Below, piece after piece: positions 1 through 17,389 of a DNA stretch of 36,124 nt. The stretch comes from Candidatus Aerophobota bacterium (lineage in GTDB: Bacteria > Aerophobota > Aerophobia > Aerophobales > JAGGXI01), in the NCBI GenBank assembly GCA_021163155.1, contig JAGGXI010000043.1, positions 1 to 36,124 on the forward strand. Direction: 5' to 3'. The position numbers were made by a program, and so were the translations under genes. The notes beneath the pieces are model-generated. The model did no database searches. It saw nothing but the letters and a program-made list of their open reading frames with translations, and was not told the DNA's origin. Every line of letters starts with the position of its first letter. The stretch's first letter is position 1.

Positions 1-861
1 TGCTAACATTTCTCTTGGTTTTATTCTATTCATCTTAAGACCTAACTCTTCCTGAGGTATACCCAGAGCAAGGCCAAGAATTTGGGGGTAATAAAAAACG
101 GGCAATTTATACTCTGTCTCAAATTGCTTTTCTATCTTTTTTTGGCTTCCTTCATACATAATACTGCAGAAAGGACATATCAAGCAGATAGCATCCGCTT
201 TAGCAGCTTTTATATGGTCAAGTTTATTCTTAGCTACTTTTAGAGCTGTCATCTCATCTATACCTAAAATTCCTCCACCACAACATCCAAGTTTATCCTT
301 GTAAGGAACAGACTTTGCTCCTGTTACCTCAATTAACTCATCAAGAGTTTTTGGATTCTCGGGGTCATCAAATCCTTCATATATTTCTGAAGGTTTTAAG
401 TAATGACAGCCATAGTGAGCAGCAAGCTTAAACTTAGATAAACCAACTTTTATATTTTCTCTTATCTTATCAATACCAACATCTTCGTATAAAATCCGAG
501 CAAAATGTTTTACCTTTATTTTCCCCTCATATTTTCTCCCTACAATTGAGAGTTCTTTATTTACTTTTTTTCTTAGCTCTTCATCTTCCTTTAATTCTTT
601 ATTTACCTCTGTTAAAACGGAACAGCATGCACTACAAAGACAACATATATCTAAACCTTTCTCTTCCGCTAAACTTAAATTCTTAGCCGCCATTAAAAGA
701 AAAGTATCTCTATCTACTGATTTTACCGGGAAACCACAACAATTAAAATCATTTATATCCACAAGCTCTATACCTAATTTATCCGCTACTTTCCTTGTAG
801 AAATCTCATAATTTAAAGCTCTCACTGGAACAGTACATCCCAAAAATAAAGCGTATTTCAT
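1..861 (-). CDS. hdrB: Heterodisulfide reductase subunit B (second set), 3' end cut by window edge
   Basis: HdrB carries the CCG-domain non-cubane [4Fe-4S] clusters that reduce disulfides, acting with HdrC and HdrA in the cytoplasm. Reading the minus strand from an ATG at 861 gives 287 open codons to the window edge; the family is usually about 290-300 residues, so only the last few are missing. The first CCG half is visible as C9, C41-C42 (NCCGFP) and a cysteine cluster at C73-C80. The second half has a YGC motif, a GCCGGG motif and CLICPFC. The ATG shares one base with the hdrC stop (TAATG), so translation is coupled. It is the last gene seen in the operon led by gntR and the second hdrB there; the other is at 10795-11682. 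Family assignment is very firm. The physiological disulfide is unknown: no CoM/CoB pathway genes are in the window. Confidence 0.93.
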   Translation of the reverse strand, partial: MKYALFLGCTVPVRALNYEISTRKVADKLGIELVDINDFNCCGFPVKSVDRDTFLLMAAKNLSLAEEKGLDICCLCSACCSVLTEVNKELKEDEELRKKVNKELSIVGRKYEGKIKVKHFARILYEDVGIDKIRENIKVGLSKFKLAAHYGCHYLKPSEIYEGFDDPENPKTLDELIEVTGAKSVPYKDKLGCCGGGILGIDEMTALKVAKNKLDHIKAAKADAICLICPFCSIMYEGSQKKIEKQFETEYKLPVFYYPQILGLALGIPQEELGLKMNRIKPREMLA

Positions 862-1385
862 TATTTTTCCTCCCTGGCACTTACCAGTTTATCTACACCT
901 TCTTGTTTAAATAATTTTTTTGTATCCTCGGCACTTTCCTCTATTTGAGGAAGACCGGCCTTTACTCGCTTTTTGTTATCAAATTCCCCTATTTCATAAA
1001 GTCTACCATGGGAGTTTAAAAATCCCATTTGAGCTACAAAAGATGGATGGATATGCCCCTCTTTTACAGCTATATTTTTTATGGCATTCATTAGGTCAGT
1101 AATCTTTACATCCTGAGGGCACCTTTCAGTGCAGCTATAACAGCCAGCACATAACCAGATAAAATCACTGGAAAGTACCCTTTCCTTCATTCCCAATAAA
1201 GCCATTCTAATAATCTTTCGGGGATTATACTTTTCATTTACTTCTCTAATGGGACATGTGGCAGTGCAAGTGCCACAAGCAAAACAGCGAGACATATTCT
1301 CACCCCCGGGTTCCGCTTGAATCTCATATTTAAAATTTGGGTTTAATTCATTTACCTTGATGATTTTTTCTTCTTTTTCACTCAT
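861..1385 (-). CDS. hdrC: Heterodisulfide reductase subunit C (second set)
   Basis: A 174-residue iron-sulfur protein that would pass electrons between HdrA and HdrB. Two [4Fe-4S] motifs are visible: C34-x2-C37-x2-C40-x3-C44-P and C79-x2-C82-x2-C85-x3-C89-P, spaced as in HdrC. A C-terminal tail of about 60 charged residues follows. It starts one base after the FrhB-like gene and its TAA overlaps the hdrB ATG by one base, so FrhB-like, HdrC and HdrB are surely co-translated. No membrane segment is seen, which separates it from HdrE/DsrM-linked systems. Family assignment is firm. Its partner is inferred from gene order; it could equally dock on the fused HdrA encoded at 3086-6103. Confidence 0.93.
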   Translation of the reverse strand: MSEKEEKIIKVNELNPNFKYEIQAEPGGENMSRCFACGTCTATCPIREVNEKYNPRKIIRMALLGMKERVLSSDFIWLCAGCYSCTERCPQDVKITDLMNAIKNIAVKEGHIHPSFVAQMGFLNSHGRLYEIGEFDNKKRVKAGLPQIEESAEDTKKLFKQEGVDKLVSAREEK

Positions 1386-1386
1386 T

Positions 1387-2514
1387 TTATTCCTCCCCTA
1401 CATTTTGAAGTTCTTCTTCCTTAAAAGTGGTAAGTGGTAACGGCTCTTCTAAATCTCTTCCTGGAACATATTTAAAAATCTCCTGCACATTATAACCTAC
1501 TGTCTTAAATATTTTAAGAAGTGGAATATTACTTGGGCAAGCTTGCTCACAAGCTCCGCATCCTACACAAGAAGTAGCCATATGACTCATTCTTCCTAAA
1601 TGGAAAAGAATAGTATCTGTGGGCATCTTGATAGAGCCTTTTCTTTTAGCCCATCCAAGGTATTTTCCTGAATCAAATTCAAAAGTAGGCGATTCAAAAA
1701 AACACTCTCTACAATAACAAATAGGACAGACTTTCATACAATTATGACAGTTAATACAGGTGGAAAAAACCGAAAGTAAATTCTCCCAACCGCTTGCCTC
1801 TTCTTTTGTCTGAGAAAAAAGAGTATCCCTTTTTTCTATCTTCCCATTAATGTATTTAGAAATAGATTCCTTTCTTTCCTTTAATTGGTTAAATTCTGAG
1901 AAAGAGAACTTTTCTAAAATTTCTTCTCCTTTTTTAGTATGGGACTCAAGAAGAATATTTTTTTCAAAATCTACTCCTATTAAGCCAATAACTAAATCGG
2001 CATTAGAGGGAATAGGGTATTCACACACCCGACAGGCTTCTCTTAATTGGGCATCTTCTTCTCCCTCCTTGAATTTTCTTAAGAGTTCATCCGAAGGTGA
2101 ACTTCCTTGCTTACAAAGGCTTTGATAATCACTGACTGAATAAGTCCCTAAACAATCTACCCCAATTATAAGTAGATTATCTAAAGAAGCCTGCTTCAAT
2201 TTAACCAGCTCTATCAATGCTCTTATCTCACAGGATCTAAGGATAACGCCTACAGGACTTTTATAAGGACTAAGTCTTGTCATATCAGAGATAATTCCTG
2301 CTGAATTAACAGGAAGGACAGGCGCAATAACATTTGCTTCCTTTAGTTCATCAGGATTATTCACCAGACTTTGAGCTACATTATCCTTTGAGGGAACCTC
2401 TCGAGGAACCAGAAGTGCACTTACCAGATTCTTTTCAAGAAGACCATTCAAAAAAGAATTAATCGTTTCCTTTACTTTACCATCCTTCACCTCAACAATT
2501 ACTTCTTTTGCCAT
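1387..2514 (-). CDS. FrhB/FdhB-like iron-sulfur oxidoreductase subunit linked to Hdr
   Basis: A 375-residue protein of the FrhB/FdhB-like (coenzyme F420 hydrogenase/dehydrogenase beta) superfamily. The N-terminal part (about 1-240) resembles the flavin-binding fold, with scattered cysteines C95, C121, C134, C161 and C164. The C-terminal part has two ferredoxin-like motifs, C253-x2-C256-x2-C259-x3-C263 (followed by extra C266, C268 and C271) and C316-x2-C319-x2-C322-x3-C326. In known Hdr clusters such subunits feed electrons from formate, F420H2 or a pyridine nucleotide into MvhD and HdrA. No catalytic FdhA or F420-reducing hydrogenase subunit lies nearby, so its electron donor is not evident. 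It lies 12 bases after mvhD and one base before hdrC. The symbol is left empty because FrhB, FdhB and related subunits cannot be told apart by eye. Confidence 0.8.
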   Translation of the reverse strand: MAKEVIVEVKDGKVKETINSFLNGLLEKNLVSALLVPREVPSKDNVAQSLVNNPDELKEANVIAPVLPVNSAGIISDMTRLSPYKSPVGVILRSCEIRALIELVKLKQASLDNLLIIGVDCLGTYSVSDYQSLCKQGSSPSDELLRKFKEGEEDAQLREACRVCEYPIPSNADLVIGLIGVDFEKNILLESHTKKGEEILEKFSFSEFNQLKERKESISKYINGKIEKRDTLFSQTKEEASGWENLLSVFSTCINCHNCMKVCPICYCRECFFESPTFEFDSGKYLGWAKRKGSIKMPTDTILFHLGRMSHMATSCVGCGACEQACPSNIPLLKIFKTVGYNVQEIFKYVPGRDLEEPLPLTTFKEEELQNVGEE

Positions 2515-2526
2515 TTTTTACCTCTA

Positions 2527-2949
2527 TTATATTGACCAATATTTATTTATTGGATTAGGGCCTAATTCTTTTATATAAGCTGTCATCTTAGACATAGTGT
2601 TAGCATATATTTTACCTTCACTGGTACTCACCCATTTAACCCAAATTCGATTATCACCTAACCCCAGAGTCTTTAAAATGCTCCTTAAAACAGTGACTCT
2701 TCTTCTCATTTTATAATTTCCATTTACATAATGGCAATCTCCCGGGCGACATCCACCAATAAAGACCCCATCGGCTCCTCTTAGTAAAGCCCAAAGAACA
2801 TAGGCAGGGTCAACTGACCCTGAACACATCACCCTAATAGGTCTAATATTTGGCGGATATTGTATCCTCAAAGTACCAGCAGTATCTGCTCCTGCATAAG
2901 TACACCAATTACACAAGAAACCAACTATTTTTGGCTCAAAATTGTCCAT
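2527..2949 (-). CDS. mvhD: MvhD/FlpD-type [2Fe-2S] electron-transfer subunit
   Basis: A 140-residue protein of the methyl-viologen-reducing hydrogenase delta subunit family. It connects an electron-donating module (hydrogenase, formate dehydrogenase or FrhB-like protein) to HdrA. The family cysteines are present: C13 and C16 (CNWC), C42 (MCSG), C67 and C72 (GGCRPGDC), which bind a [2Fe-2S] cluster in the family. Length is typical. The ATG has a strong GAGAAGGAGG site. It is directly downstream of the fused hdrA, after a 136-base gap holding REP-like hairpins, and just upstream of the FrhB-like gene. The order HdrA-MvhD-FrhB-like-HdrC-HdrB suggests one complex. No MvhA or MvhG hydrogenase subunit is encoded here. 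Confidence 0.93.
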   Translation of the reverse strand: MDNFEPKIVGFLCNWCTYAGADTAGTLRIQYPPNIRPIRVMCSGSVDPAYVLWALLRGADGVFIGGCRPGDCHYVNGNYKMRRRVTVLRSILKTLGLGDNRIWVKWVSTSEGKIYANTMSKMTAYIKELGPNPINKYWSI

Positions 2950-2990
2950 TAATTACCTCCTTCTCATCTTAAAAATCTCTTTTTGCAATC

Positions 2991-3077
2991 GGTAGCCGCA
3001 GGCTTCAGTCTGCGCAACTTAAAAGCTGTGGCTATTATATCTCCCCTGCCACTGGTAGTCGCATGGTTTATTCTGCG
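2991..3077 (+). repeat. Pair of REP-like GTAG-headed hairpins
   Basis: Two short units lie in direct orientation between mvhD and the fused hdrA. Each begins GGTAG followed by an imperfect hairpin: 2991-3014 (arms around CGCAGGCT/AGTCTGCG) and 3054-3077 (CGCA...TGCG). A relic of an inverted copy (GCTGTGGCTA) lies between them at about 3025-3035. Related units occur at 8754-8836 and 23372-23446. A GTAG tetranucleotide at the foot of a hairpin is the hallmark of REP sequences mobilised by RAYT transposases; no RAYT gene is in the window. Confidence 0.7.
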
Positions 3078-3085
3078 TTCCATAT

Positions 3086-6000
3086 TTATATTGCCGCATC
3101 AACAACGGAAAGAATTTGTTTATCTTCATACCCTTTTAATTTTGTTGCTCCATTAGGACAGACCGTAGTGCAAATACCACATCCACGACAAAGAGTTGGT
3201 ATCACTTTAGCTATCTTTTTTTCCTCATCTATCACTCTTGCTTTAAAAGGACAGGCAGAGATACAGACCTCACAACCACTGCACCATCTCTCATTTACTT
3301 CGGCAATATACCTTCTGGATAAGATTCTCTCTTGAGATAATAATATTACAGCCTTAGCGGAAGCTGCATTAGCTTGAACTATCGATTCCTCAATAGAGCG
3401 GGGGGAATGAGCTAAACCACAAACAAATATTCCGTCTCTTAAGAATTCAACTGGTCGAAACTTAATATTAGCTTCCTCAAAAAAACCATCCTCATTCAAT
3501 GGAACATCTAAAACTTTAGCTAAAGAACGATTATCCTCGGGTATCATTCCAGTACTTAACACAACAAGACCAGGATTTATAACCAATTCTTCATTTAATA
3601 CAGGATCAGTAACTCTTATCTCTAATTTATTCTCTTTAATTTCAAGATGGGGTTTATTTTCTACATCGTATCTAATAAAGGATATCCCCATCTCCCTTGC
3701 TTTTGTATAATACTCTTCTTTAAACCCATAAGTCATTATATCTCGATAGAGAATATATATATTTGCTTTGGGATTCTCTTCCTTTATCTTTAGGGCATTC
3801 TTTATGGCTTGAGAACAGCACACCCGGCTACAATAAAGATGCGGCTCTTCCCGCGAACCTACACATTGAATCATAACTATTGAACTTTGGGAATTAACAT
3901 CTATTTCTCTATTTGCAATTAACTTTTCTATCTCTCTTTGAGTGATTATCCTTTTATCTTTACCATAAAGATACTCTTTGGGTTTATTCTCTTTTGCTCC
4001 AGTCGCCACAATAATAGCTCCATAAGGAACAACTTTAGATTCTGATTGGTCTATTTTAAGTACTGCCTTAAAATTTCCAGCATAACCGGTAACTTCTTCA
4101 AGCTCTGTATTTTTATAGATATTGATTAACTTATTTTCTTCTATCTGTTTTATCTTCTCTTTAAGAAAATTCTGAGCATCCAATCCTTCCAAAGTCCAAT
4201 AAATTTCTCTTGCATTACCTCCAAGCTCGGAGCTTTTCTCTATTAAATCAACCTCAAATCCCTGTTTAGCAATGGAGAAAGCCGCAACCATACCAGATAA
4301 GCCTGCACCAATAACTAATACCCTTTTAATCACAGAATCTGTTATTAAAGGCAATGGCTGTTGTAAGATGCTTTTTTCTACGGCCATAGAGAGAAATTTT
4401 TTTGCTTTTTCTGTAGCTAATTTTTTATCTTTATGTACCCAGGATATCTGCTCTCGAAAATTTACTATCTGCAAAAGAGAAGGGTTAAGCCCTACTTGGC
4501 GAACAGCCTTTTTAAACAAAACCTCATATTTATAAGAAGTACAGGCAGCAAAAATCACCCTATTTATCTTAGAATCAGCTATCTCTTTTTTGACTTTATC
4601 TAAATCAGATTTAAAACAGAGATATTTAAAATCTTTAACCAATTGGACATTGGAAAGTTTACTTGCAAATTTTTCTACTTCCTTTATATCAATTATACTG
4701 CTAATCTCTTGACCACAATGACATATAAAAATACCTATTTTGGGATCCTCATTAGTTGCATCAATCTCTTGAGGATAATTATCTTCTCCAGAAAATTTTC
4801 CTCGAGAAGATAGCATTACTCTGGAAACCTCAAGAGCAGCTGCACTTGCCTCAACAATAGTTTCTGAAATATCTTTAGGGCCTGAAAAAGAACCGCAGGT
4901 ATATATACCCTCTTTTGCTATCACATTAGAAAAATCGATTGTTTTGCAAAATCCATACTTATTTAATTTTAACCCTAAAGTCTCACTTATATTTTTAGCT
5001 TTATCAGGAGGCGTTTGTCCAACAGATAAAATAACTAGGTCAAATTCATCTTTAACATAATCCCCTTTTTCTGTCTCATAAATAATTTTTAAATTTTTTG
5101 TATCTGAAAATTCTTCTATTGCAGGAACTTTACATCTTATAAATTTTATACCTTTTTCTTTTACTTTTTCATAATACCTATAATATCCTTTACCAAAAGT
5201 TCTCATATCCATAAAAAAGATTTGAACATCAATTGTTGGGTCTATATCTTTTATAATCATAGCCTCTTTTAAAGCGATCATACAGCAGGCAGATGAACAG
5301 TAATCTCTTTCTTTATCTCTTGAACCGATACACTGCAGAAAAGCAATTTTTCGAGGCATTTTTCCATCTGAGGGGCGAATAAATCTACCATTATAAGGGC
5401 CCATTCCACTAAGCATTCTTTCAAGCTCTATACTGGTAACAACATTTGGATACTCTCTGTACCCATATTGATGTAAACTGTGGGGATTAAATTCTTCAAA
5501 ACCGGAAGAGAGAATGATAGCTCCTACTTCTAATTCAAGAATTTCATCCTTCTGAGAAAGATCAATAGCATTGGTAGGACATACCTTTACACATTCTCCA
5601 CATCGATTACAAGATTCTATATCAATAGTATATAAATTAGGAATTGCTTGAGGGTACTTAATATAAATTGCTTTACGAGAAGTTAAACCTTCATTAAACT
5701 CATCTTTCACTTCAATTGGGCAAACCTCCGTGCATAATCCACATCCAATACACTTATCCTCTTTTATATACCTTGCTTTTTTCTTAAAAGAAATTTTAAA
5801 GTTTCCTACAGAGCCTTCTACTTTTTCTACTTCTGTATTAGTCATAATCTGGATATTGGGATGAGTTAAATCTCGACGAAGACAAAATTCAGAGGCCTCC
5901 TCTCTCTTAAAAATTGGCAGCATTTGGCACATACCACAATCATTTGTAGGAAACTGTTTATCTAATTGAGAAAGCGTTCCTCCTATATTTGAACTTTTAT

Positions 6001-6103
6001 CTATTAAATAAACTTTAAATCCTAATTCCGCTAAATCAAATGAAGCTTTTATTCCCCCTATTCCAGCACCTACTACCATTACTGCGCCAATATCTTTCTC
6101 CAT
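3086..6103 (-). CDS. hdrA: Tandem-fused double HdrA-like flavoprotein (1005 residues)
   Basis: HdrA is the FAD-containing, electron-bifurcating subunit of Hdr complexes, normally about 650 residues. This protein holds two HdrA-like flavin modules. Module 1 (about 1-440) begins directly with a Rossmann motif (GAGIGG, 12-17) and carries an inserted ferredoxin (C118, C121, C124, C128 and C165, C168, C171, C175). A complete HdrA N-terminal domain follows (about 455-590, CHCG at 461-464). Module 2 (about 594-925, GAGLSG at 599-604) lacks the inserted ferredoxin. The protein ends with a two-cluster ferredoxin (C941-C951, C972-C982). ATG at 6103 has an AGGAGG site. It sits between frdA and mvhD. I see no frameshift, so it is one polypeptide. 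Two FADs and about four [4Fe-4S] clusters are inferred. Confidence 0.93.
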   Translation of the reverse strand: MEKDIGAVMVVGAGIGGIKASFDLAELGFKVYLIDKSSNIGGTLSQLDKQFPTNDCGMCQMLPIFKREEASEFCLRRDLTHPNIQIMTNTEVEKVEGSVGNFKISFKKKARYIKEDKCIGCGLCTEVCPIEVKDEFNEGLTSRKAIYIKYPQAIPNLYTIDIESCNRCGECVKVCPTNAIDLSQKDEILELEVGAIILSSGFEEFNPHSLHQYGYREYPNVVTSIELERMLSGMGPYNGRFIRPSDGKMPRKIAFLQCIGSRDKERDYCSSACCMIALKEAMIIKDIDPTIDVQIFFMDMRTFGKGYYRYYEKVKEKGIKFIRCKVPAIEEFSDTKNLKIIYETEKGDYVKDEFDLVILSVGQTPPDKAKNISETLGLKLNKYGFCKTIDFSNVIAKEGIYTCGSFSGPKDISETIVEASAAALEVSRVMLSSRGKFSGEDNYPQEIDATNEDPKIGIFICHCGQEISSIIDIKEVEKFASKLSNVQLVKDFKYLCFKSDLDKVKKEIADSKINRVIFAACTSYKYEVLFKKAVRQVGLNPSLLQIVNFREQISWVHKDKKLATEKAKKFLSMAVEKSILQQPLPLITDSVIKRVLVIGAGLSGMVAAFSIAKQGFEVDLIEKSSELGGNAREIYWTLEGLDAQNFLKEKIKQIEENKLINIYKNTELEEVTGYAGNFKAVLKIDQSESKVVPYGAIIVATGAKENKPKEYLYGKDKRIITQREIEKLIANREIDVNSQSSIVMIQCVGSREEPHLYCSRVCCSQAIKNALKIKEENPKANIYILYRDIMTYGFKEEYYTKAREMGISFIRYDVENKPHLEIKENKLEIRVTDPVLNEELVINPGLVVLSTGMIPEDNRSLAKVLDVPLNEDGFFEEANIKFRPVEFLRDGIFVCGLAHSPRSIEESIVQANAASAKAVILLSQERILSRRYIAEVNERWCSGCEVCISACPFKARVIDEEKKIAKVIPTLCRGCGICTTVCPNGATKLKGYEDKQILSVVDAAI

Positions 6104-6133
6104 CTTAAAATCCTCCTCTATTAAAACTCGCTT

Positions 6134-6162
6134 AGAGATTTCTGGAAAATTCAGAAATCTCT
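6134..6162. repeat. Hairpin repeat, AGAGATTTCTG family, copy 1
   Basis: A perfect 11-bp inverted repeat (AGAGATTTCTG at 6134-6144, CAGAAATCTCT at 6152-6162) lies in the 152-base gap between the fused hdrA and frdA. The same hairpin with the same following bases (TGATT.CA.AGAT.AAA) recurs at 13816-13843, so it is a dispersed element rather than a local terminator. It lies within the operon, where it could act as a processing or stability signal. Confidence 0.6.
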
Positions 6163-6255
6163 GATTTCACAGATAAAAAATTGAAATTACACAGATTAGC
6201 AGAGGACTCTGGAGGTTTTTCAGAGGCCTCGGTTAAAGTTTTTACTTTTATTTAT

Positions 6256-7920
6256 TTAATAAAATATATCAATTTTTCTTGCTAATACCGCTCTCCCTCT
6301 GTACTCTGGAAGAAGTATTGGAGCTTTTCTCTCAGGCTTTATACCAGTCTCTTTAAGCATATTTACATATTTTTTAACATGCTCTAATGATAGTTTTCCG
6401 TTGCTTTTAACTGATTTTATATATTCTGCACTATACATTCCAGCCCTTCTACCAAAAACCAGACAATCAAGAGTTGAGTTTCCCATAAGTCTATTCTTGC
6501 CATGCACACCACCTGATATCTCTCCTGCAACAAACAAACCTTCTACATTGGTTTTCCCTTGAGGGTCTGTCTCCACTCCCCCATTTTGATAGTGGAGTGT
6601 GGGAAAAACAAGGACAGGGTCTTTTATCATATTAACTCCAAATCTTTTAAACATCCTCACCATAGCTGGAAAAGAGCGTTCAATCCTACCTTTACCATTA
6701 ATAATATCAATGAGAGGTGTGTCTAACCATATTCCCCTCATTCCTGTAGGTGTTATAATTCCCTTATCCCTGGTATAACATTCTCTTATAAAAGCAGAAG
6801 CTTCTACGTCCCGTGGTTCAAGAGGAAATACAAATACTTCACCGTCTTTATTCACTGGCTGGGCCCCACTCGTTCTTAATTTCTCGGTAAGGAGAAGGCC
6901 TATTATTTGCTGAGGATACGCAGCCCCAGTAGGATGGTATTGAACAGTATCTGTATCCCTTAATTTTGCCCCAACACGATATGCAAGAACAACTCCATCA
7001 CAGGTAGCACCATAATGGTTAGTTGTCGGGAATCCTCTTATATGAAGCCTTCCAAAACCACCGGTAGCCAGAATAGTTGCTTTAGCCTTTACAATTTTAT
7101 ACTCCCCTGTTTCCAGACCCCATAAGACTGCACCAGCTACTTTGTTCTCAGAATTAGTGATAAGTTCAATAGCCGGATAGAATTCAAGAACCGTAATTCT
7201 TCTATTTCTAAACTCATCTCTTAAAACACGCAGCTCCTCCATTCCAGTATAATCTCTGCAGGCATGCATTCTCCTTCTCGAAGTGCCCCCACCTGTTAGT
7301 TCCATAAAATTACCATTAACATCTTTATCAAACATAGCTCCAAGCTTCTCAAGCCACTGCATTACCTGAGGAGCATCTTCCACAAGCGCTCTTAACACAT
7401 CGGGCTTGTTCGTAAAATGCCCTCCTCCAAGACCATCAATATAATGAATTACTGGACTATCTTCTGGGCGGTCTGCTGCCTGAGTACCACCTTGTGCCAT
7501 CATAGAATTAGCATCTCCATGCCTTAGTTTGTTGGTAAGCAAGATCTTCTCTGCAGAAATCCCATAGTCATTTGCCAGAAGAGCAGCACTTGTTCCAGCA
7601 AGACCGCCGCCTATTATTAAAATATCTGGCTCATAATCTACTTTACTTAAATCAATCTCTTCAGGCTCTATCACTGGATACGCCTCAAGTAAATCCACTA
7701 CTTCATTAGGAGCAATATCCCCCTTATTGGGACCAATTTTTATTTCTCTTTTGCCACCGGGAGTATAATCTGGATGATAACGGTTTAAAACTTTTTCTCT
7801 CTCCTCAGGCGTCATCTGAGGAGGTAATTTTCCTATTCTCTTTGGTCGTGTTCTCTCAACAAGCTTAATTGATTCACGCATATATTCAGGATAACCACCT
7901 ATAAATTTAAGTTCAGCCAC
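6256..7920 (-). CDS. Soluble fumarate reductase/succinate dehydrogenase-type flavoprotein subunit
   Basis: A 554-residue FrdA/SdhA/TfrA-family flavoprotein for fumarate/succinate interconversion. An unusual extension of about 98 residues precedes the FAD motif GGGLAG (104-109). Further family marks are AQGGTQAA (142-149), QYHPTG (327-332), an RTSG site at 349-352 where the family has the catalytic Arg (usually RGEGG), a PTLHY motif and HGKNRLMGNS near the C-terminus, where the substrate-binding Arg lies. The His that binds FAD covalently in FrdA/SdhA aligns with Asn138, so FAD should be non-covalent as in aspartate oxidase and soluble reductases. Start is GTG at 7920 with an AAGGAGG site. It follows frdB by 14 bases. 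No membrane anchor (FrdCD/SdhCD) is present. Aspartate oxidase is less likely because of the FrdB partner and the fumarase and malic enzyme neighbours. Confidence 0.88.
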   Translation of the reverse strand: MAELKFIGGYPEYMRESIKLVERTRPKRIGKLPPQMTPEEREKVLNRYHPDYTPGGKREIKIGPNKGDIAPNEVVDLLEAYPVIEPEEIDLSKVDYEPDILIIGGGLAGTSAALLANDYGISAEKILLTNKLRHGDANSMMAQGGTQAADRPEDSPVIHYIDGLGGGHFTNKPDVLRALVEDAPQVMQWLEKLGAMFDKDVNGNFMELTGGGTSRRRMHACRDYTGMEELRVLRDEFRNRRITVLEFYPAIELITNSENKVAGAVLWGLETGEYKIVKAKATILATGGFGRLHIRGFPTTNHYGATCDGVVLAYRVGAKLRDTDTVQYHPTGAAYPQQIIGLLLTEKLRTSGAQPVNKDGEVFVFPLEPRDVEASAFIRECYTRDKGIITPTGMRGIWLDTPLIDIINGKGRIERSFPAMVRMFKRFGVNMIKDPVLVFPTLHYQNGGVETDPQGKTNVEGLFVAGEISGGVHGKNRLMGNSTLDCLVFGRRAGMYSAEYIKSVKSNGKLSLEHVKKYVNMLKETGIKPERKAPILLPEYRGRAVLARKIDIFY

Positions 7921-7934
7921 ATCTTTCCTCCTTT

Positions 7935-8693: not shown

Positions 8694-8753
8694 TTTATCA
8701 CTCCAAAACAAAGATAATTTTTTCAAAAATATCTTTTCTCTTTTTGCAAAATT

Positions 8754-8836: not shown

Positions 8837-8841
8837 GTTTT

Positions 8842-10794: not shown

Positions 10795-11682
10795 TTATAC
10801 TCCACCTATTAAATGTTTACTTTCTAGTAAAGGTCGAGGGTCAACAAAATTCAATTCAAAACGACAAACCTTTTCATCAAGACCCAAAGAAAGAGCTAAA
10901 AGCTGGGTAAAATAAAATATTGGTATATTCTTAAAGTCCGAAAATTTCTCTTTTATCTCTTTTTGTCGATTGTCCAAATTAAAACCACACAAGGGACAAC
11001 TTAAAACAATTGCTTCTGCTCCCTGGTTAATAGCTGATCTTAAAATATTATAAGCTCGTTCAACAACCAAATCAACATTTGCAACAGTATTATAAGAACC
11101 ACAACACTCTGTTTTATAGGGATAATCAATTACTTCTGCACCAGTAGACTCCAGGAGATTCTCCAAAATGGTAGGGTTTTCAGGATCATCTATCCCTACC
11201 TCTGGAGGACGTAGAAGGAGGCAACCATAATAAGGAGCTACTTTTAATCCTTTAAGAGGTATCTTTACCTTTCTGGCAATTTGCTCAAAACCAATCTCAT
11301 TTTTCAAAATTTCTAAAAGATGTAAAACTTTAACCTTTCCATCGTATTTTACATCTTCTCTGTACATAAGATCATTAAGTTTGTCCAACTTCTCTTTATC
11401 TTCCTGAACTAATTTATTTGCTCTCTTTAAGGTATTGTAACACATAGAACAAAGAGTCACTACCCGATTATCCTTTTGTTCTTCCACTCGAATGAGATCA
11501 CGAATAGGAGCCAGTTGATGAATTAAATCATCGGAAGTTAAAGAATAAACTGTTCCGCAACAATTCCATCGTTGGAGTTCTACCATCTCTATGCCTAAAG
11601 AAGACGCAGAAGCTAAAGCTGAATCTTCAAAATTTTTTGCCATCGTTTTTAAAGTGCATCCTGGAAAATAAGAAATTTTCAT
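10795..11682 (-). CDS. hdrB: Heterodisulfide reductase subunit B (first set)
   Basis: A 295-residue HdrB with two CCG domains: C9, C41-C42, C78, C81 and C154, C193-C194, C229, C232, the ligands for the two non-cubane [4Fe-4S] clusters that split disulfides in this family. The ATG at 11682 (MKISYFPGC) is chosen because AAAGGGG lies six bases upstream and the family starts with this motif. A longer reading from 11811 would run through the repeat array at 11706-11879 and is rejected. The stop is three bases before hdrA. A 218-base gap separates it from hdrC upstream, which is unusual for an hdrCB pair and is filled by repeats. Confidence 0.94.
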   Translation of the reverse strand: MKISYFPGCTLKTMAKNFEDSALASASSLGIEMVELQRWNCCGTVYSLTSDDLIHQLAPIRDLIRVEEQKDNRVVTLCSMCYNTLKRANKLVQEDKEKLDKLNDLMYREDVKYDGKVKVLHLLEILKNEIGFEQIARKVKIPLKGLKVAPYYGCLLLRPPEVGIDDPENPTILENLLESTGAEVIDYPYKTECCGSYNTVANVDLVVERAYNILRSAINQGAEAIVLSCPLCGFNLDNRQKEIKEKFSDFKNIPIFYFTQLLALSLGLDEKVCRFELNFVDPRPLLESKHLIGGV

Positions 11683-11705
11683 CTTTACCCCTTTCATCAA
11701 ATCAA

Positions 11706-11879
11706 GTAAATGGGTAAATGGGATAATGGGTAAATGAGTTAACTGGGCAAACTCTTTGGTACTATTTCTTACAGCTTTTTCACCTATACTTGAGAGTACT
11801 AAGAGGAGCAATCTTTCTCATTATCTTCATACATTAGCATCTACTCATTCACTCATCTACTCATCTACCCAGAGTTAAT
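11706..11879. repeat. Degenerate heptamer-like repeats in inverted arrangement
   Basis: The hdrC-hdrB gap holds two facing arrays. The left (about 11706-11752) repeats variants of GGGTAAATG. The right (about 11833-11879) repeats ACTCATCT on the plus strand, i.e. AGATGAGT on the minus strand. GGGTAAATGAGT at 11728-11739 pairs with ACTCATCTACCC at 11859-11870 (11 of 12). The flanks also pair (TTAACTGGG with CCCAGAGTTAA). The about 95 bases between show no gene. This looks like an inserted palindromic repeat element rather than coding DNA. Confidence 0.6.
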
Positions 11880-11900: not shown

Positions 11901-12308
11901 TCAACCACTAAATTTCCGAAGAGCGCTAACCAAAGCTATCTGAGGAACTTGAGAAAGAGTTTCCCTGGGGATAGACAAAGGATTAACATAATCTACATTT
12001 TTCCTGAGAGTGATCTGTCTAAGAGCTTCCATAATTTTTGCTACATCTACCCCCTTAGGACAACGGGTAACACAGGTAAAACAAGAAGCACAAACCCAGA
12101 TTGTTTTGGAATTTAAAACCTCTTCTTCTCCTCCAAGTTGGACAAGGCGAATAATCTCACTGGGAGATATATCCATCTCTGATATGCTGGGACAGCCTGC
12201 AGAACATTTCCCACATTGGTAACACGCATAGATGTTCTGTTCACTCAACTCCTCTACTTTATCTAAAAATTTACTTTTAGTATTTTTAATAGAAATTTCT
12301 GCCCTCAT
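11901..12308 (-). CDS. hdrC: Heterodisulfide reductase subunit C (first set)
   Basis: A 135-residue iron-sulfur subunit with C29-x2-C32-x2-C35-x3-C39-P and C73-x2-C76-x2-C79-x3-C83-P, the two [4Fe-4S] motifs of HdrC, and helical spacing typical of the family. It carries electrons between HdrA and HdrB in the cytoplasm. The ATG has TGGAGA upstream. It begins two bases after the lipoate-ligase gene, so the ligase, the lipoyl carrier and the Hdr set are tightly joined. It is separated from hdrB by a repeat-filled 218-base gap. Assignment is firm. Confidence 0.94.
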   Translation of the reverse strand: MRAEISIKNTKSKFLDKVEELSEQNIYACYQCGKCSAGCPSISEMDISPSEIIRLVQLGGEEEVLNSKTIWVCASCFTCVTRCPKGVDVAKIMEALRQITLRKNVDYVNPLSIPRETLSQVPQIALVSALRKFSG

Positions 12309-12310
12309 TT

Positions 12311-13360
12311 TTATTTCTCCACTTTCATTGCCTTTAAAAAATCTTCTGATGCAACACCGGGAGATTGAACTTTCTCCTTATCATAGAACTCTTCTATTTT
12401 AGAATCCAGCAGGCTCCTTTTGCGAATTTTTCCCTTTAAATTACTCTCTAATCCTTCAAGGCAATCTTTCGGATAAAGTGTAAAATCACCTGAGAGATCA
12501 ATCTCATTTATTCTCTCTTTCTCTACCTCCTGAGCAGCTCTTATCAATCCGCCTTTTGCTTTATGCATTCCATAAATAACCTCTACCCCTTCCCTTATTT
12601 TTACGCCAGTTAACATTTTCGGTGTTTTTTTAAAAAGAAAAACCGGGGAAGTAAACTCTTTTTCTAAATTCTCCATTAATTTAATCATTCTTGGAGTAAG
12701 CTCCACTGGCTCAAGCTTTCCAAAAAGTTTCTCAAATTTTTCAATTAAAACAGATTTAATCTCTTCCCTTGGAGGAACTTCTCCTAACTCTTCCTTCATA
12801 GTAGTTAGATTTTCTTTCATACTTTTATAGATCTTATCTCTAAATTTTTCCTCAGGCACTTTCAATACTTTACTCATCGCCTTATAATTAAAATCTAAGA
12901 GAATTCCTCCCACCCAAACAAAACAATCTCCAATATCTCCACTTCCTTCACCATCAATCTTTCTTCCCTCTTTAGTAAGAATATCATTTACAGAACGAAA
13001 ATTTGTCTCAATCCCAAATTCTCTATAAGTCTCTATTATCGGAAGAGAAAACCTTTTATAATTTTCGCTTATCTTTCGGGAGAATATGGGATTATCTCTT
13101 TTTATAATCACTTGATGAAATATCTGGTTCTCGTCTAAATATGTAGCTCCCCCTCCTAACTCCCTCCTCATCACAGGAATATTTGCCTTTTTGCAGAATT
13201 GAAGGTCAACTTCTTCTTTGGCGTTTTGAAAATATCCTACACTCGCCAAAGGAGTTTTTGGAGAAACTATCACCAAAGCTTCTATTCCCATTCGTGCAAG
13301 AAGATGAAAAAAAAGCATAGATTGTTGTCCAGGGAGTTTATCTAGATTAAATAAATACAT
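12311..13360 (-). CDS. lplA: Lipoate-protein ligase A family protein
   Basis: A 349-residue LplA/BPL-fold protein predicted to attach lipoate (through lipoyl-AMP) to a carrier lysine. The lipoate-binding signature RRELGGGATYLDE is at 65-77, and the catalytic-lysine region NDILTKEGRKIDG at 125-137 places the key Lys at 134. The usual following S/N-A-Q is replaced by GEGSGD, a divergence from housekeeping LplA. Residues from about 230 on form a C-terminal accessory domain, as in two-domain ligases. It starts three bases after the GcvH-like gene and ends two bases before hdrC. The obvious substrate is that neighbouring carrier. Ligases of this type are known next to sHdr/LbpA genes; whether this one belongs to that clade needs a tree. 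Confidence 0.88.
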   Translation of the reverse strand: MYLFNLDKLPGQQSMLFFHLLARMGIEALVIVSPKTPLASVGYFQNAKEEVDLQFCKKANIPVMRRELGGGATYLDENQIFHQVIIKRDNPIFSRKISENYKRFSLPIIETYREFGIETNFRSVNDILTKEGRKIDGEGSGDIGDCFVWVGGILLDFNYKAMSKVLKVPEEKFRDKIYKSMKENLTTMKEELGEVPPREEIKSVLIEKFEKLFGKLEPVELTPRMIKLMENLEKEFTSPVFLFKKTPKMLTGVKIREGVEVIYGMHKAKGGLIRAAQEVEKERINEIDLSGDFTLYPKDCLEGLESNLKGKIRKRSLLDSKIEEFYDKEKVQSPGVASEDFLKAMKVEK

Positions 13361-13363: not shown

Positions 13364-13792
13364 CTATTTTTCCTCCTTAGGATGCTTTGCTATTTCTCCT
13401 TTTAACCATTCAATTGCTTTTTCTCCCTTCATTAAATTATCAAGCTCAGTAGGGTCACTCATTTTTACTTCAAAAAGCCACCCTTCACCATAAGGGTCTT
13501 TATTCATCAGCGTAGGGTCATCCTCAACATCCTCATTCGTACTTACTATCTCCCCAGAAACGGGAGTATATAGCTTACCCAGCCATTTACCTGTCTCATA
13601 ACTACCTACAGCATCATCCTGTTTTACCTCATCCCCTTCCTCAGGTATTTCAATATAACTTATCTCACCAGCAAGTTTCTGGGAAAAATCATTCAAGCCG
13701 ACCCTAACCTTATCTCCCTCAACCTTTGCCCACATATGTTCCTTATGGTAATAAAGCTCATCAGGCATATCATAATCTTCTATCTTACTCAT
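13364..13792 (-). CDS. GcvH-like lipoyl carrier protein (LbpA-like candidate)
   Basis: A 142-residue protein of the glycine-cleavage H / lipoate-binding fold. The lipoylation site lies in a beta hairpin, ETGKWLGKLYTPVSGE at 66-81, with K69 the expected lipoylated lysine. In housekeeping H protein the residue after this Lys is usually small; here it is Trp70. The flanking GEISYIEIPEEGD and NKDPYGEGWL motifs are typical. No gcvP, gcvT or lpd is in the window. Instead it lies between fumarase and lipoate ligase/hdrCBA. GcvH-like carriers beside Hdr genes are known as LbpA in the sHdr sulfur-oxidation system. Here it may carry a dithiol for HdrB or the fumarate reductase, which is inference. Start ATG has a GGAGGAGAGGAG site. 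Confidence 0.88.
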   Translation of the reverse strand: MSKIEDYDMPDELYYHKEHMWAKVEGDKVRVGLNDFSQKLAGEISYIEIPEEGDEVKQDDAVGSYETGKWLGKLYTPVSGEIVSTNEDVEDDPTLMNKDPYGEGWLFEVKMSDPTELDNLMKGEKAIEWLKGEIAKHPKEEK

Positions 13793-13868: not shown

Positions 13869-14423
13869 TTATTTAGCATATTTTGGTGGTTCACTCTCAT
13901 ATAAATTATTTCCCTTTGAATCTATCACCACAATTGCTGGAAAATCCTCTACATAGTAACGATGAATAGCCTCTGGACCTAAATCCTCATAAGCTACAAC
14001 TTCAGATTTCTTTATACTTTTAGCAATTAAAGCTGCTGCTCCACCAACAGCATGGAAATAAACTGCATTATTTTTCTTCATGCTCTCAACTACTTCTTTG
14101 GAACGAAGTCCTTTCCCAATCATTCCCTTAAGCCCTTTATCCAATAATGCTGGAGCGTAGGGGTCCATACGATAACTTGTAGTTGGACCAGCAGCACCAC
14201 AAGCATAACCAGGTGGAGTAGGAGCTGGGCCAACATAGTAAATAATTTGATTTTTAATTTCTATTGGCAACTTTTCATTCTTCTGTAGAAGAGAGAATAA
14301 GCGTTTATGAGCTGCGTCTCTGCCAGTGTATATATATCCTGTAATATTTACTGTATCCCCCGCTTTTAAGCTAAAAACTACCTCATCCGTTAAAGGAGTA
14401 ATAACTTTTATAATTTTTGCCAT
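13869..14423 (-). CDS. fumB: Class I fumarate hydratase, beta (C-terminal) subunit
   Basis: A 184-residue C-terminal-type subunit of the oxygen-sensitive [4Fe-4S] fumarase (two-subunit form; also resembles TtdB of tartrate dehydratase). It makes malate from fumarate with the alpha subunit. Family marks are the GYIYTGRDAAHKR region (about 29-41), GPAPTPPGYACGAAGPTTSYRMD (about 60-82) and AVGGAAALIA (about 125-134). The ATG at 14423 is chosen because AAGGAGGG lies upstream and the protein then starts MAKIIKVITPL as in the family. An upstream in-frame ATG at 14480 would overlap the alpha gene by 44 bases. It follows alpha by 13 bases. Malic enzyme upstream and fumarate reductase downstream favour fumarase over tartrate dehydratase. 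Confidence 0.9.
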   Translation of the reverse strand: MAKIIKVITPLTDEVVFSLKAGDTVNITGYIYTGRDAAHKRLFSLLQKNEKLPIEIKNQIIYYVGPAPTPPGYACGAAGPTTSYRMDPYAPALLDKGLKGMIGKGLRSKEVVESMKKNNAVYFHAVGGAAALIAKSIKKSEVVAYEDLGPEAIHRYYVEDFPAIVVIDSKGNNLYESEPPKYAK

Positions 14424-14436
14424 TGATAACCCTCCT

Positions 14437-15282
14437 TTATAAAGTTCCTTCTGCATGTCGAGCTGCATGACAGCAGACATTTACCGCCACTGGCATACCA
14501 GCAATATGTGTAGGAGTATATTCAATATTTACTGCCAGTGATGTGACTCTTCCACCCAAACCTCCGGGCCCGATTCCTAAATTGTTTATCCGCTCCAAAA
14601 CTTCCTTTTCCATCCTGGCATATCGCTCATCTCGACTATGCTCTCCAATTTTACGAAGAAGTGCCTTTTTAGCAATGACAAAAGCCTTGTCTACAGTTCC
14701 TCCAATACCCACACCTACTATAGTAGGAGGACAAGGATTAGGGCCTGCTTTCCTTACAGTCTCTACTATAAAATTTTTAATTCCTTCCGGACCATCAGCA
14801 GGTTTCATCATGGATAAGGCACTCATATTTTCACTACCAAACCCCTTAGGCGTAACCATAAATTTAATCTTATCTCCAGGAACAATACTGGTATATATAA
14901 TCGCTGGAGTATTTGTTCCTGTATTCTTTCGTGCAAATACAGGGTCATCTACAGTAGATTTCCTTAAATATCCTTCTACATAAGCTTCCTTAACCCCTTC
15001 ATTAATAGCCTCTTCAAAATTACCCCCTATAATATGAACCTCCTGCCCTATTTCTACATATAAAACAGCCAAACCTGTATCCTGGCAGATAGCAATTTCT
15101 TCATCCGAAGCTATTTTGTAGTTTTTTAGCAGCATATTAAGCACTGAGCGGCCGGTCTCTGAAACTTCTTTTTCTCGGGCTTCCTTCAGGGCCATTAAAA
15201 CATCCTCTCCAATATGATAGTTTGCCCTTAAAAATAGTTCTTTAACTTTATCTTTAACCTTATCTACCTCTATCTCACGCAT
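14437..15282 (-). CDS. fumA: Class I fumarate hydratase, alpha (N-terminal) subunit
   Basis: A 281-residue N-terminal-type subunit of class I fumarase. The three cluster cysteines are visible in AICQDTG (about 65), NPCPPT (about 187) and NVCCHAARH (near the C-terminus). GTNTPAIIY, TPKGFGSENMS and GGLGGR are further family motifs. With the beta subunit it hydrates fumarate to malate. Start ATG has GAAGGAG. It lies 60 bases after malic enzyme and 13 before beta. L(+)-tartrate dehydratase alpha is the main alternative; the operon context argues for fumarase. Confidence 0.92.
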   Translation of the reverse strand: MREIEVDKVKDKVKELFLRANYHIGEDVLMALKEAREKEVSETGRSVLNMLLKNYKIASDEEIAICQDTGLAVLYVEIGQEVHIIGGNFEEAINEGVKEAYVEGYLRKSTVDDPVFARKNTGTNTPAIIYTSIVPGDKIKFMVTPKGFGSENMSALSMMKPADGPEGIKNFIVETVRKAGPNPCPPTIVGVGIGGTVDKAFVIAKKALLRKIGEHSRDERYARMEKEVLERINNLGIGPGGLGGRVTSLAVNIEYTPTHIAGMPVAVNVCCHAARHAEGTL

Positions 15283-15342
15283 TATTTATCTCCTTCCCAT
15301 TTACCCTATTAGACAGTAAACATCTAACAAGGTTTACAGCTT

Positions 15343-16683
15343 TTATTCTGGAGGAGGCTGGATAAAACCTTTTTCCATATGGAGTTTGGTAATTTCCTGG
15401 GACTTTTTTATAGCTGAAGAGGCAAGCTCTCTTAATTCTTCTTTAGTTCTCTTTATTCTTGCTACTCCCTGTTCTATAGCCTTCAACCCTACGGCTACCG
15501 CCTCCTGGATAAACATTTCTGTTTCTCCCATAGTGGGAATTATATACTCTTCACTTAGTCCTTTTTCCTCTGCATAACTGGATATAGCCTTTGCTGCAGT
15601 AATACACATCTCATCAGTTATACTTCTCGCTCCCACATCCAGAACGCCTCTAAAAACAGCAGGAAATCCAAGAGAATTGTTCACCTGATTAGGAAAATCG
15701 GAACGGCCGGTAGCCACAATCCTTACTCCTGCTTCTTTCGCCTCCCAGGGCCATATTTCAGGAATAGGATTGGCGCAAGCAAAAACTATAGCATCCTTAG
15801 CCATACCAGCTATTTCTTCCTTCTTTATTGTACCGGGGCCAGACTTGGATAAAGCAATACAAACATCAGCACCCTCAAGAGCTTCCTTTATACCGCCAGT
15901 TCTTCCTTCTTTATTTGTCTTCTCACACATATTCCACTTAGTAGGCTCTTTCTTTAATTCTGTTCTTCCTTTATGGAGAATACCTTTACTATCCACCATG
16001 ATAACCTTTTCAGGATTTGCTCCAGCTAACATTATATACTTGGCATTGTTCATATTTGCTGCCCCTGCTCCAACAAAAGTAATGGAGACCTCTCCCAACC
16101 TCTTATTAACCACCTTTAAGGCACTAATTAATCCAGCTAAACTAATTAGTGCTGTTCCTTGCTGGTCATCATGCCATACAGGAATATTTAACTCTTTCTG
16201 TAATCTCTCAAGAATATAAAAACATTTCGGTTTGGCAATATCTTCAAGATTTATACCTCCAAATGTAGGAGCAAGCCATTTAACAGCAGTAATTATCTCA
16301 TCAGGATCTTTAGTATTTAAACATATAGGAAATGCATCTACCCCCCCTAAATATTTAAATAGCATCCCCTTACCTTCCATCACTGGTAAAGCAGCTTGAG
16401 GTCCTATATCTCCCAATCCAAGCACTCTTGTTCCGTCACTAACAATGGCAACAAAATTTCCCTTATTTGTGTGTTCATACACCTTAGATTCATCTTTTTG
16501 AATATCCAGGCAGGGTTCTGCTACGCCAGGAGTGTACCAGATAGCAAAATCTTCATAAGTTCTCACTGGAGCCTTAATCTCTACACCTATCTTTCCTCGG
16601 TAAAAGGGATGATATTTCATAGCAAACATTTTAGGCTCATTAGCCTTTGCCAAAAGTTCCTCTTTTGTCAGCTCTTTGCCCAT
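15343..16683 (-). CDS. maeB: NAD(P)-dependent malic enzyme (short bacterial type)
   Basis: A 446-residue malic enzyme, converting malate to pyruvate, CO2 and NAD(P)H. Visible motifs: WYTPGVAEPC (49-58, catalytic Tyr50), EGKGMLFK (103-110, catalytic Lys105), GGINLEDI (142-149) and HDDQQGTA (171-178) for the divalent metal, and GAGAAN (205-210) for the nucleotide. It is the length of the malic-enzyme domain alone, without the phosphotransacetylase tail of long MaeB. The third glycine of the usual GxGxxG is Asn210, so the cofactor preference is uncertain. It is the first enzyme gene after gntR, 28 bases downstream, and joins fumarase to pyruvate. Start has AAGGAG. Confidence 0.94.
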   Translation of the reverse strand: MGKELTKEELLAKANEPKMFAMKYHPFYRGKIGVEIKAPVRTYEDFAIWYTPGVAEPCLDIQKDESKVYEHTNKGNFVAIVSDGTRVLGLGDIGPQAALPVMEGKGMLFKYLGGVDAFPICLNTKDPDEIITAVKWLAPTFGGINLEDIAKPKCFYILERLQKELNIPVWHDDQQGTALISLAGLISALKVVNKRLGEVSITFVGAGAANMNNAKYIMLAGANPEKVIMVDSKGILHKGRTELKKEPTKWNMCEKTNKEGRTGGIKEALEGADVCIALSKSGPGTIKKEEIAGMAKDAIVFACANPIPEIWPWEAKEAGVRIVATGRSDFPNQVNNSLGFPAVFRGVLDVGARSITDEMCITAAKAISSYAEEKGLSEEYIIPTMGETEMFIQEAVAVGLKAIEQGVARIKRTKEELRELASSAIKKSQEITKLHMEKGFIQPPPE

Positions 16684-16711
16684 TATATTCTCCTTCTAAA
16701 AATTTATTTTT

Positions 16712-17389
16712 TTATTTATGCCTTGTTTTTAAAAAATAAAGCACATTCTTTTTAATATTCATACAATGATTTCTAATTAATTTCTCTGCCTTATCTACAT
16801 CTCCTTGAAGCATAGCATTTATAATCTCTTCGTGTTCCTTTAAACTCTTCTCAGCCCTACCAGGGACAGAAAAAGATTCCATTCTTCCTAATTGAATTTG
16901 GGCATTAAGATTATTCATTATCTGGATGAGTCTAGAATTTTGGCTGGATCTAACTAAGAAATTATGGAAGGCAATATCTGCTTTAATAAAAGGCTCCAAA
17001 TTACCTTCCTCTAAATAACTTTCGCATTTACGATGAAACTCATCTATCTCCAAAAGCTTCTCATTGAACTTTTCTTTATCAAGTTTTAAAAAAATTGATC
17101 TAATAGCTAACCCCTCTAATGTTCCTCTAAGATCGTATATCTCTTCTACATCTTTAGGGGAAAGATTAGTTACAAAAGTTCCATATCGGGGAATAATTTC
17201 TACTAATCCTTCTCTCTCTAACTTATTAATAGCCTCCCTCACAGGTGTCCTGCTTACTCCTAACTCTTCTGCTAACCACTCCTCTTTAATCCTGGTTCCC
17301 GGCTTCAAATCTTCATCGCCTAATCTTTTCTTAATCGCTTCATATACATCTTCACTTAAATTGGGACGCGTTCTTATCTTGTTCTCCAT
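16712..17389 (-). CDS. GntR-family regulator with FCD ligand domain
   Basis: A 225-residue FadR-subfamily repressor/activator. The winged helix (about 10-75) has the recognition helix region VSRTPVREAINKLEREGLV. The FCD domain (about 80-215) carries the metal-ligand set D138-x3-H142, H186 and H208. Such proteins commonly sense organic acids (lactate, glycolate, C4-dicarboxylates). It heads the long operon and diverges from glcD. A perfect palindrome at 17415-17433 overlaps its own -10 box, so autoregulation is likely. The ligand is not known; malate, fumarate, succinate or a hydroxy acid would fit the neighbours. Confidence 0.93.
   Translation of the reverse strand: MENKIRTRPNLSEDVYEAIKKRLGDEDLKPGTRIKEEWLAEELGVSRTPVREAINKLEREGLVEIIPRYGTFVTNLSPKDVEEIYDLRGTLEGLAIRSIFLKLDKEKFNEKLLEIDEFHRKCESYLEEGNLEPFIKADIAFHNFLVRSSQNSRLIQIMNNLNAQIQLGRMESFSVPGRAEKSLKEHEEIINAMLQGDVDKAEKLIRNHCMNIKKNVLYFLKTRHK

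Follow-up and report, generated by a model that had tools for sequence, protein, structure and literature searches.

Methanogenic archaea reduce fumarate with TfrAB, an enzyme that uses the thiols coenzyme M (CoM-SH) and coenzyme B (CoB-SH). Many bacteria and archaea that synthesise neither coenzyme possess homologues of HdrABC, which raises the question of the disulfide used at HdrB in such organisms. Here we describe an operon from a candidate Aerophobetes metagenome-assembled genome (MAG; GenBank GCA_021163155.1; 1.83 Mb, 93% complete), in which genes for Hdr-type proteins and a FrdAB-like fumarate reductase are combined with a gene pair encoding a GcvH-like lipoyl protein and a lipoate-protein ligase, LplA. 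The DNA analysed, hereafter the window, is the whole contig C43 (JAGGXI010000043.1) of this genome, 36,124 nucleotides long; outside the window, chosen stretches of the host genome were read. On balance, the operon appears to encode a soluble, quinone-free fumarate reductase/succinate dehydrogenase on an HdrABC scaffold, placed in a malate–fumarate–succinate pathway and provided with its own lipoyl carrier as the thiol/disulfide substrate of HdrB.

Soluble Hdr-linked fumarate reductases have been proposed before (PMC6315080; PMC7282089). In the available text of these sources, a Flx-Hdr-linked fumarate reductase is proposed for Pseudoclostridium thermosuccinogenes (PMC7282089, citing a 2019 preprint), and in tubeworm symbionts and Thioflavicoccus the flxABCD-hdrABC genes are interspersed with korABCD and tfrAB (PMC6315080, PMC11636981). 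The claim of the original prediction that no system with this gene set had been described is not tenable in view of these proposals; a search of the literature turned up no named Hdr-Frd complex. As for the lipoyl protein, LbpA of sulfur oxidisers is a proven lipoyl-carrier precedent (PMC6067878), and in the Ehe cluster of Culexarchaeia, GcvH has been suggested as a disulfide carrier for HdrB (PMC9723716).

Gene content and organisation of the operon

The genes named in the original prediction, including the GntR regulator, are all present on the minus strand between positions 1 and 17389. The block comprises 16 same-strand genes read from 17389 to 1, namely 15 genes and the regulator, and is listed below in the direction of transcription, preceded by the promoter candidate.

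17424..17451, minus strand: sigma-70-like promoter candidate TTGACT-16-TATAAT (best in scan; match total not above shuffles)
16712..17389, minus strand: GntR/FCD-family regulator, first gene (PF00392, PF07729)
15343..16683, minus strand: malic enzyme (PF00390, PF03949; NADP-dependent malic enzyme model)
14437..15282, minus strand: class I fumarase alpha subunit (PF05681; NF004885 410 bits, cut-off 276)
13869..14480, minus strand: class I fumarase beta subunit (PF05683; NF005310 over cut-off)
13364..13792, minus strand: Hdr-associated lipoyl carrier, GcvH-like, 'KW type' with lipoyl Lys69 and Trp70 (PF01597; family separate from canonical GcvH)
12311..13360, minus strand: lipoate-protein ligase LplA with LplB-like C-terminal domain (PF21948, PF10437)
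11901..12308, minus strand: HdrC1 (TIGR03290 76.7 bits, under cut-off 160)
10795..11811, minus strand: HdrB1, likely ATG at 11682 (PF02754 x2; both non-cubane cluster motifs; PDB HdrB matches)
8842..10791, minus strand: HdrA1, 649 aa, binding flavin adenine dinucleotide (FAD) (HdrA2 model 779 bits)
7935..8726, minus strand: FrdB-like protein with one 2Fe-2S and two 4Fe-4S motifs, without CCG domain (PF13510, PF13187)
6256..7920, minus strand: FrdA-like flavoprotein with fumarate reductase active site (PF00890; catalytic residues 34/34)
3086..6103, minus strand: tandem HdrA-like protein (HdrAA), 1005 aa (HdrA2 model in three stretches; PDB HdrA matches)
2527..2949, minus strand: MvhD/FlpD, electron connector to HdrA (PF02662 170 bits)
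1387..2514, minus strand: FdhB/ElpB-like electron-input subunit, FrhB family (PF04432; model pLDDT 85)
861..1385, minus strand: HdrC2 (TIGR03290 117.5 bits, under cut-off 160)
1..861, minus strand: HdrB2, truncated by the contig start, both non-cubane motifs present (TIGR03288 312 bits, under cut-off 345)

The spacing had been described as mostly below 30 bases or overlapping, which holds for nine of the 15 junctions; the remaining six gaps measure 60, 76, 89, 115, 136 and 152 bases. Likewise, the recognisable promoter stands in part: the candidate 5' of GntR (17451–17424) is the best of 51 scan matches, but this total does not exceed that of shuffled sequence (58 ± 8.5). The operon itself is confirmed, and its gene order is not due to chance, since a contig (L003) of another Aerophobetes genome, hereafter the sister, carries the same 16 genes in an unchanged order. 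By FrdA (93% identity), the nearest relative of the host is a candidate Aerophobetes MAG.

FrdA and FrdB

The FrdA family was found at 80 loci in Aerophobetes, WOR-3/Stahlbacteria, Aminicenantes, Bipolaricaulota, Sumerlaeota, Omnitrophota, Thermoplasmata, Archaeoglobi and other lineages. FrdB precedes FrdA in nearly all of them and HdrC-HdrB usually adjoins the pair; some Stahlbacteria loci have FrdBA but no HdrB close by. In a tree, the 34 FrdA sequences included fall into a single clade (FastTree support 0.94). Identity of the window protein is about 31–33% to E. coli FrdA, SdhA and NadB as well as to TfrA. Six catalytic residues (His, Thr, Glu, Arg, His, Arg) are kept in all 34 sequences, the aspartate-oxidase Glu121 is replaced by Gly or Phe (34/34), and the position of the FAD-linking histidine is occupied by Asn in the family and by Cys in TfrA. 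Assignment of FrdA as L-aspartate oxidase (NadB) was rejected on the basis of residues (no Glu121) and the tree. Its assignment as TfrA was also rejected, given a curated-model score of 296.6 bits versus a cut-off of 718, the separate clade and Asn in place of Cys.

In FrdB, 12 Cys are invariant in 23 relatives and account for one 2Fe-2S and two ordinary 4Fe-4S motifs, with no sign among these motifs of the quinone-side 3Fe-4S cluster. It could not be assigned as a TfrB with fused CCG domains, as it has no CCG domain and HdrB1 is a separate gene. Its structure model was weak (predicted template modelling score 0.58) and matched nothing. No convincing transmembrane segment was detected in any operon protein, in line with the predicted lack of a membrane anchor for FrdAB. 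FrdAB shares a putative transcription unit with HdrA, HdrB and HdrC in the window and the sister, and the arrangement recurs in other phyla.

The predicted identity of this enzyme as a soluble, quinone-independent, Hdr-linked fumarate reductase/succinate dehydrogenase is well supported by the FrdA active site, the FrdB motifs and the HdrCB linkage, and the original prediction of such a module tied to HdrA-type proteins is upheld. That prediction had named grouping with aspartate oxidase, or FrdAB and HdrCBA unlinked in related genomes, as evidence to the contrary; the protein is not an aspartate oxidase and the HdrCB linkage recurs in many phyla, but the Stahlbacteria loci mentioned above lack it, so that the prediction largely withstood this check. 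Altogether, the earlier interpretation is partly supported.

Hdr subunits and electron input

HdrB1 and HdrB2 each contain two CCG motifs for non-cubane 4Fe-4S clusters, found in 49 of 52 homologues, and in HdrB1 the ten Cys of the two clusters are invariant in 24 relatives. Since both HdrB copies keep these ten Cys, a thiol/disulfide substrate would be expected at HdrB, with the lipoyl protein as the obvious candidate.

The electron-input module differs among FrdA loci and may be an MvhAG hydrogenase (e.g., L029), FlxBA (L008, L009, L033) or an FdhB-like protein. FlxA/B, present in other loci, are not among the window operon genes, which include FdhB-like and MvhD genes instead; the operon is a variant of the Hdr-linked soluble fumarate reductase, not the Flx form itself. 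The FdhB-like subunit has a confident predicted fold, with FdhB of Fdh-Hdr (7bkb_E) and ElpB of Elp-Hdr (8rvu_E) as the best PDB matches. In line with the noted absence of a hydrogenase catalytic subunit from the operon, searches of the whole 93%-complete host genome detected neither a NiFe hydrogenase gene nor the ligase CofE of coenzyme F420. Both F420 and H2 were rejected as electron input on these grounds, F420 being an unlikely donor because the host lacks its ligase.

A third Hdr set is present in the host (G000:C30; L277:446-4201), consisting of a 797-aa HdrA, HdrC and HdrB without adjoining FrdAB; its HdrB is 62% identical to HdrB1.

The putative lipoyl carrier and its ligase

The GcvH–LplA pair, of which the original prediction made little use, is the most informative part of the operon. 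The lipoyl site of the operon GcvH reads ETGKW, as opposed to E(S/A)VK(A/S) in glycine-cleavage proteins. Profile scores in WOR-3 are bimodal and do not overlap, with at least 172 bits for KW-type proteins and at most 146 for canonical GcvH. In a set of 131 sequences, Trp follows the lipoyl Lys in 67/67 KW-type and 0/56 canonical proteins, and seven divergent relatives group with the KW type in the tree of the same set, at a node with low support (0.33). The motif and the score gap are thus better evidence than the tree, and judged by them the operon GcvH is a member of a separate family, distinct from the glycine-cleavage GcvH of the host.

That second host GcvH is canonical and lies beside two GcvP-subunit genes (gcvPA, gcvPB); a LipL/LplA-like gene is close by, and LipA is encoded elsewhere in the genome. 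The operon pair is therefore additional to an ordinary gcv cluster with its own ligase-like gene. A glycine-cleavage role for the operon GcvH was rejected on account of this second cluster, the ETGKW motif and the neighbourhood counts given below. Probing the host for LipS1 gave no match, with a query that had no positive control; LipA is present.

The window lipoyl protein contains no Cys, and no sulfur-transfer genes (Tus, Dsr, rhodanese) occur in the operon. This protein does not resemble LbpA in cysteines or gene context. A search of plasmids for LbpA-like relatives returned only ordinary GcvH or unannotated places among the matches listed.

In one WOR-3 locus (L174, about 1300–10400), genes for a KW-type GcvH, LplA and HdrB are located beside larger frames (~300 and ~440 aa) encoding GcvH-like domains without the KW motif.

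Genomic neighbourhoods of KW-type GcvH genes

We compared 40 KW-type and 40 canonical GcvH genes from WOR-3 and Thermoplasmatota, counting neighbours within ~8 kb and taking HdrB/HdrD, HdrA or MvhD as an Hdr-type gene. Hdr-type neighbours were present for 28/40 KW-type versus 2/40 canonical genes (Fisher p = 1e-9), and GcvPA neighbours for 4/40 versus 23/40, both counts being uncorrected for shared ancestry. When CCG genes alone were considered in WOR-3, they occurred near 17/20 KW-type and 0/20 canonical genes, again uncorrected. After collapsing at 70% identity, 8 of 12 testable clusters keep an Hdr-type neighbour.

The KW-type contexts include LarA-GlcD-HdrD, DsrE-DsrH-aldehyde dehydrogenase beside FlxA-HdrA-HdrB, and LplA-LipT-LipS2-LipS1, several of these names being assigned by eye. 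An archaeal contig (VMTD01000002.1) carries a same-strand block HdrC1-HdrB1-FrdB-FrdA-Kor-HdrAA-MvhD-FrhB-FlxB-FlxA-LplA-LipT-LipS2-LipS1-GcvH, and in two more Thermoplasmatota GcvH lies 11–13 kb from FrdA on the same strand.

In four WOR-3 loci (L178, L179, L180 and L181), the genes of a KW-type GcvH and of an aldehyde dehydrogenase lie near FlxA-HdrA-HdrB, together with genes for small DsrE-/DsrH-like proteins (names assigned by eye); this arrangement possibly represents a sulfur-transfer branch.

Conservation in Aerophobota

Within the phylum Aerophobota, 17 genomes were searched. In the sister, the operon extends at least five genes further, to a nickel-pincer isomerase (NF052515), a GlcD-type dehydrogenase, an HdrD-like Fe-S/CCG protein and SucC-SucD. 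In the host, a separate contig (C17) carries genes for GlcD, an HdrD-like protein, SucC, SucD, four Kor-type subunits and a glutamate-dehydrogenase-like protein, with the SucC/SucD, Kor and glutamate dehydrogenase names assigned by eye from sequence. Identity between host and sister reaches 78–93% from GcvH through FrdA, 55–62% for the fumarase and 49% for the tandem HdrA, so that the operon is a mosaic. This pattern implies that the lipoyl pair shares its history with HdrCBA-FrdBA and not with the fumarase. In another relative (G008), GcvH directly precedes HdrC1 and LplA is missing.

The tandem HdrA (window 3086–6103) is 49% identical to the 1485-aa version of the sister (L003:11710-16164), as compared to 80–93% for its neighbours, which suggests gene replacement within the operon. 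The nickel-pincer isomerase of the sister (L279:1760-3025) belongs to group 22 and, together with GlcD-HdrD, may feed a D-2-hydroxy acid.

Proposed mechanism and alternative explanations

In the proposed scheme, FrdAB would dock on HdrC1-HdrB1-HdrA1, and HdrAA-MvhD-FdhB-like-HdrC2B2 would form a second unit for electron input or output, as in Elp-Hdr but without F420. LplA would lipoylate the operon GcvH-like protein, whose dihydrolipoyl/lipoyl couple would serve as the thiol/disulfide substrate of HdrB, replacing CoM-SH and CoB-SH. The fumarate/succinate couple lies at about +30 mV. For the lipoamide couple, about −290 mV has been given (PMC6067878). Therefore, reduction of fumarate by dihydrolipoyl would be strongly downhill, while succinate oxidation would need energy, perhaps from ferredoxin through HdrA. 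If correct, this scheme would account for fumarate reduction or succinate oxidation in anaerobes that have no quinone pool.

Several observations weigh against the carrier role. Of the 48 genomes with this FrdA, 33 have no KW-type GcvH and 15 have one; in one Aerophobota relative (G006), FumB is followed directly by HdrC1, without GcvH-LplA, and no GcvH was found in that MAG. Given these counts, the cassette missing from G006 and the LplA missing from G008, the carrier is not universal for this reductase, and HdrB in the 33 genomes must use something else or nothing. The neighbourhood counts are uncorrected for relatedness, CCG genes alone in Thermoplasmatota gave no significant difference (5/20 versus 1/20, p = 0.18), and many KW-type GcvH genes adjoin GlcD-HdrD rather than FrdAB.

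Part of this evidence would also suit a scheme in which a bifurcating HdrA complex uses FrdAB as its high-potential acceptor, with electrons passing from HdrC1/HdrB1 directly to FrdB without a free thiol, and GcvH-LplA serving, for example, a GlcD-HdrD dehydrogenase. Most FrdBA-HdrCB genomes do lack a KW-type GcvH, the WOR-3 KW-type genes sit with LarA-GlcD-HdrD, the sister operon holds GlcD-HdrD too, and fumarate/succinate is an acceptor strong enough to drive ferredoxin reduction; a bifurcating Flx-Hdr-Frd system has been proposed in the text available from PMC7282089. Nevertheless, direct transfer appears rather unlikely here: HdrB1 retains the two non-cubane clusters in the arrangement used in disulfide chemistry, and GcvH-LplA, or GcvH alone, stands directly upstream of HdrC1 in Aerophobota, a linkage repeated in the archaeon. 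That GcvH and LplA are bystanders serving glycine cleavage or general lipoylation is very improbable; PF01597 and the GcvH model are matched above cut-off, but a gcvH-gcvPA-gcvPB cluster with its own ligase-like gene exists elsewhere in the host, and the KW type forms its own group, seldom found beside GcvPA.

A sulfur-oxidising relative of sHdr-LbpA, in which the lipoyl protein would carry sulfur instead of electrons, has an even smaller chance. Although in sHdr systems, too, Hdr-like genes are accompanied by those for a GcvH-like protein and its dedicated ligase (PMC6067878), and some WOR-3 KW-type genes adjoin DsrE/DsrH-like genes, the operon contains malic enzyme, fumarase and FrdAB in place of sulfur-transfer genes, and its lipoyl protein lacks the two Cys conserved in LbpA of most lineages; some archaeal LbpAs also lack the N-/C-terminal conserved cysteines (PMC6067878). 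Least probable of all is that FrdA acts on L-aspartate or another enoate and not on fumarate/succinate. The similar identity (~31%) to E. coli FrdA, SdhA and NadB and the separate 34-member clade would permit it, but the full catalytic set, the absence of Glu121 and the recurrence of fumarase, malic enzyme, SucCD and Kor genes beside FrdA argue for the C4-dicarboxylate substrates fumarate and succinate.

Returning to the lipoyl carrier as HdrB substrate, a wider generalisation could be proposed, to which we give somewhat less than even credence: KW-type lipoyl proteins would be a general diffusible thiol/disulfide currency of non-methanogens, doing the job of CoM-SH and CoB-SH, with their own lipoate-attachment machinery in bacteria and archaea, and exchanging with CCG-domain enzymes such as FrdAB-HdrBC, GlcD-HdrD dehydrogenases and HdrA-MvhD units. 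A gene family that tracks Hdr-type enzymes across domains, has a lipoyl site and often its own ligase provides a concrete, testable candidate for the HdrB partner.

Other genes in the window

Upstream of the operon lies a further oxidoreductase gene, which probably has a role in related metabolism:

17839..19263, plus strand: divergent GlcD-type FAD 2-hydroxyacid dehydrogenase (PF02913, PF01565)

A second co-directional block (25512–35261) encodes a four-subunit 2-oxoacid:ferredoxin oxidoreductase, a class III CoA-transferase, two aldehyde:ferredoxin oxidoreductases, a small Fe-S protein and a sodium:solute symporter. The carbamoyltransferase at 21872–22873 is above the cut-off of the ornithine model and scores higher on the putrescine carbamoyltransferase model (446 bits, cut-off 500). 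A solitary 105-residue LivF-like ATP-binding cassette ATPase fragment (22946–23263) is perhaps a decayed gene.

Comparison with known systems

The window operon shares with methanogen TfrAB an SdhA-like flavoprotein, a 2Fe-2S/4Fe-4S wire and CCG chemistry. However, these parts are present as separate subunits, since the CCG domain fused in TfrB corresponds here to HdrB1, FrdA belongs to another clade and the host is bacterial.

As far as described in PMC7282089, the succinate operon of P. thermosuccinogenes similarly encodes a soluble fumarate reductase together with fumarase and Hdr proteins, with ferredoxin coupling proposed. The input there is Flx (NADH), whereas here it is HdrAA-MvhD-FdhB-like, accompanied by malic enzyme and GcvH-LplA; no lipoyl cassette is described in the available part of that source. 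In tubeworm symbionts and Thioflavicoccus, fumarate reductase genes are also interleaved with Hdr and Kor genes, and a direct electron-transfer complex was suggested (PMC6315080, PMC11636981). The setting there is a reductive tricarboxylic acid cycle with ATP citrate lyase, and the text available from these sources mentions no lipoyl carrier.

Elp-Hdr of Methanothermobacter marburgensis likewise feeds HdrA through MvhD-type and FdhB-like proteins without an active hydrogenase or formate dehydrogenase, but uses F420H2 (PMC12350162), for which the host here has no F420 ligase. The Ehe cluster brings together HdrBC, SdhA, HdrA2B2C2 and GcvH; in contrast to the present operon, it centres on a group 4 membrane hydrogenase and CdhA, and was described from a single lineage without a cross-genome test (PMC9723716). 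The sHdr-LbpA systems with sLpl and LipS1/S2 (PMC6067878, PMC10332631) also provide their Hdr-type proteins with a GcvH-like lipoyl protein and a ligase dedicated to them, while the window operon differs in its Cys-free lipoyl protein, the absence of sulfur-transfer genes and its partners FrdAB, fumarase and malic enzyme. Relative to all these systems, what is new here is the separate lipoyl protein family, its occurrence in this operon and its recurrent linkage to Hdr in both bacteria and archaea.

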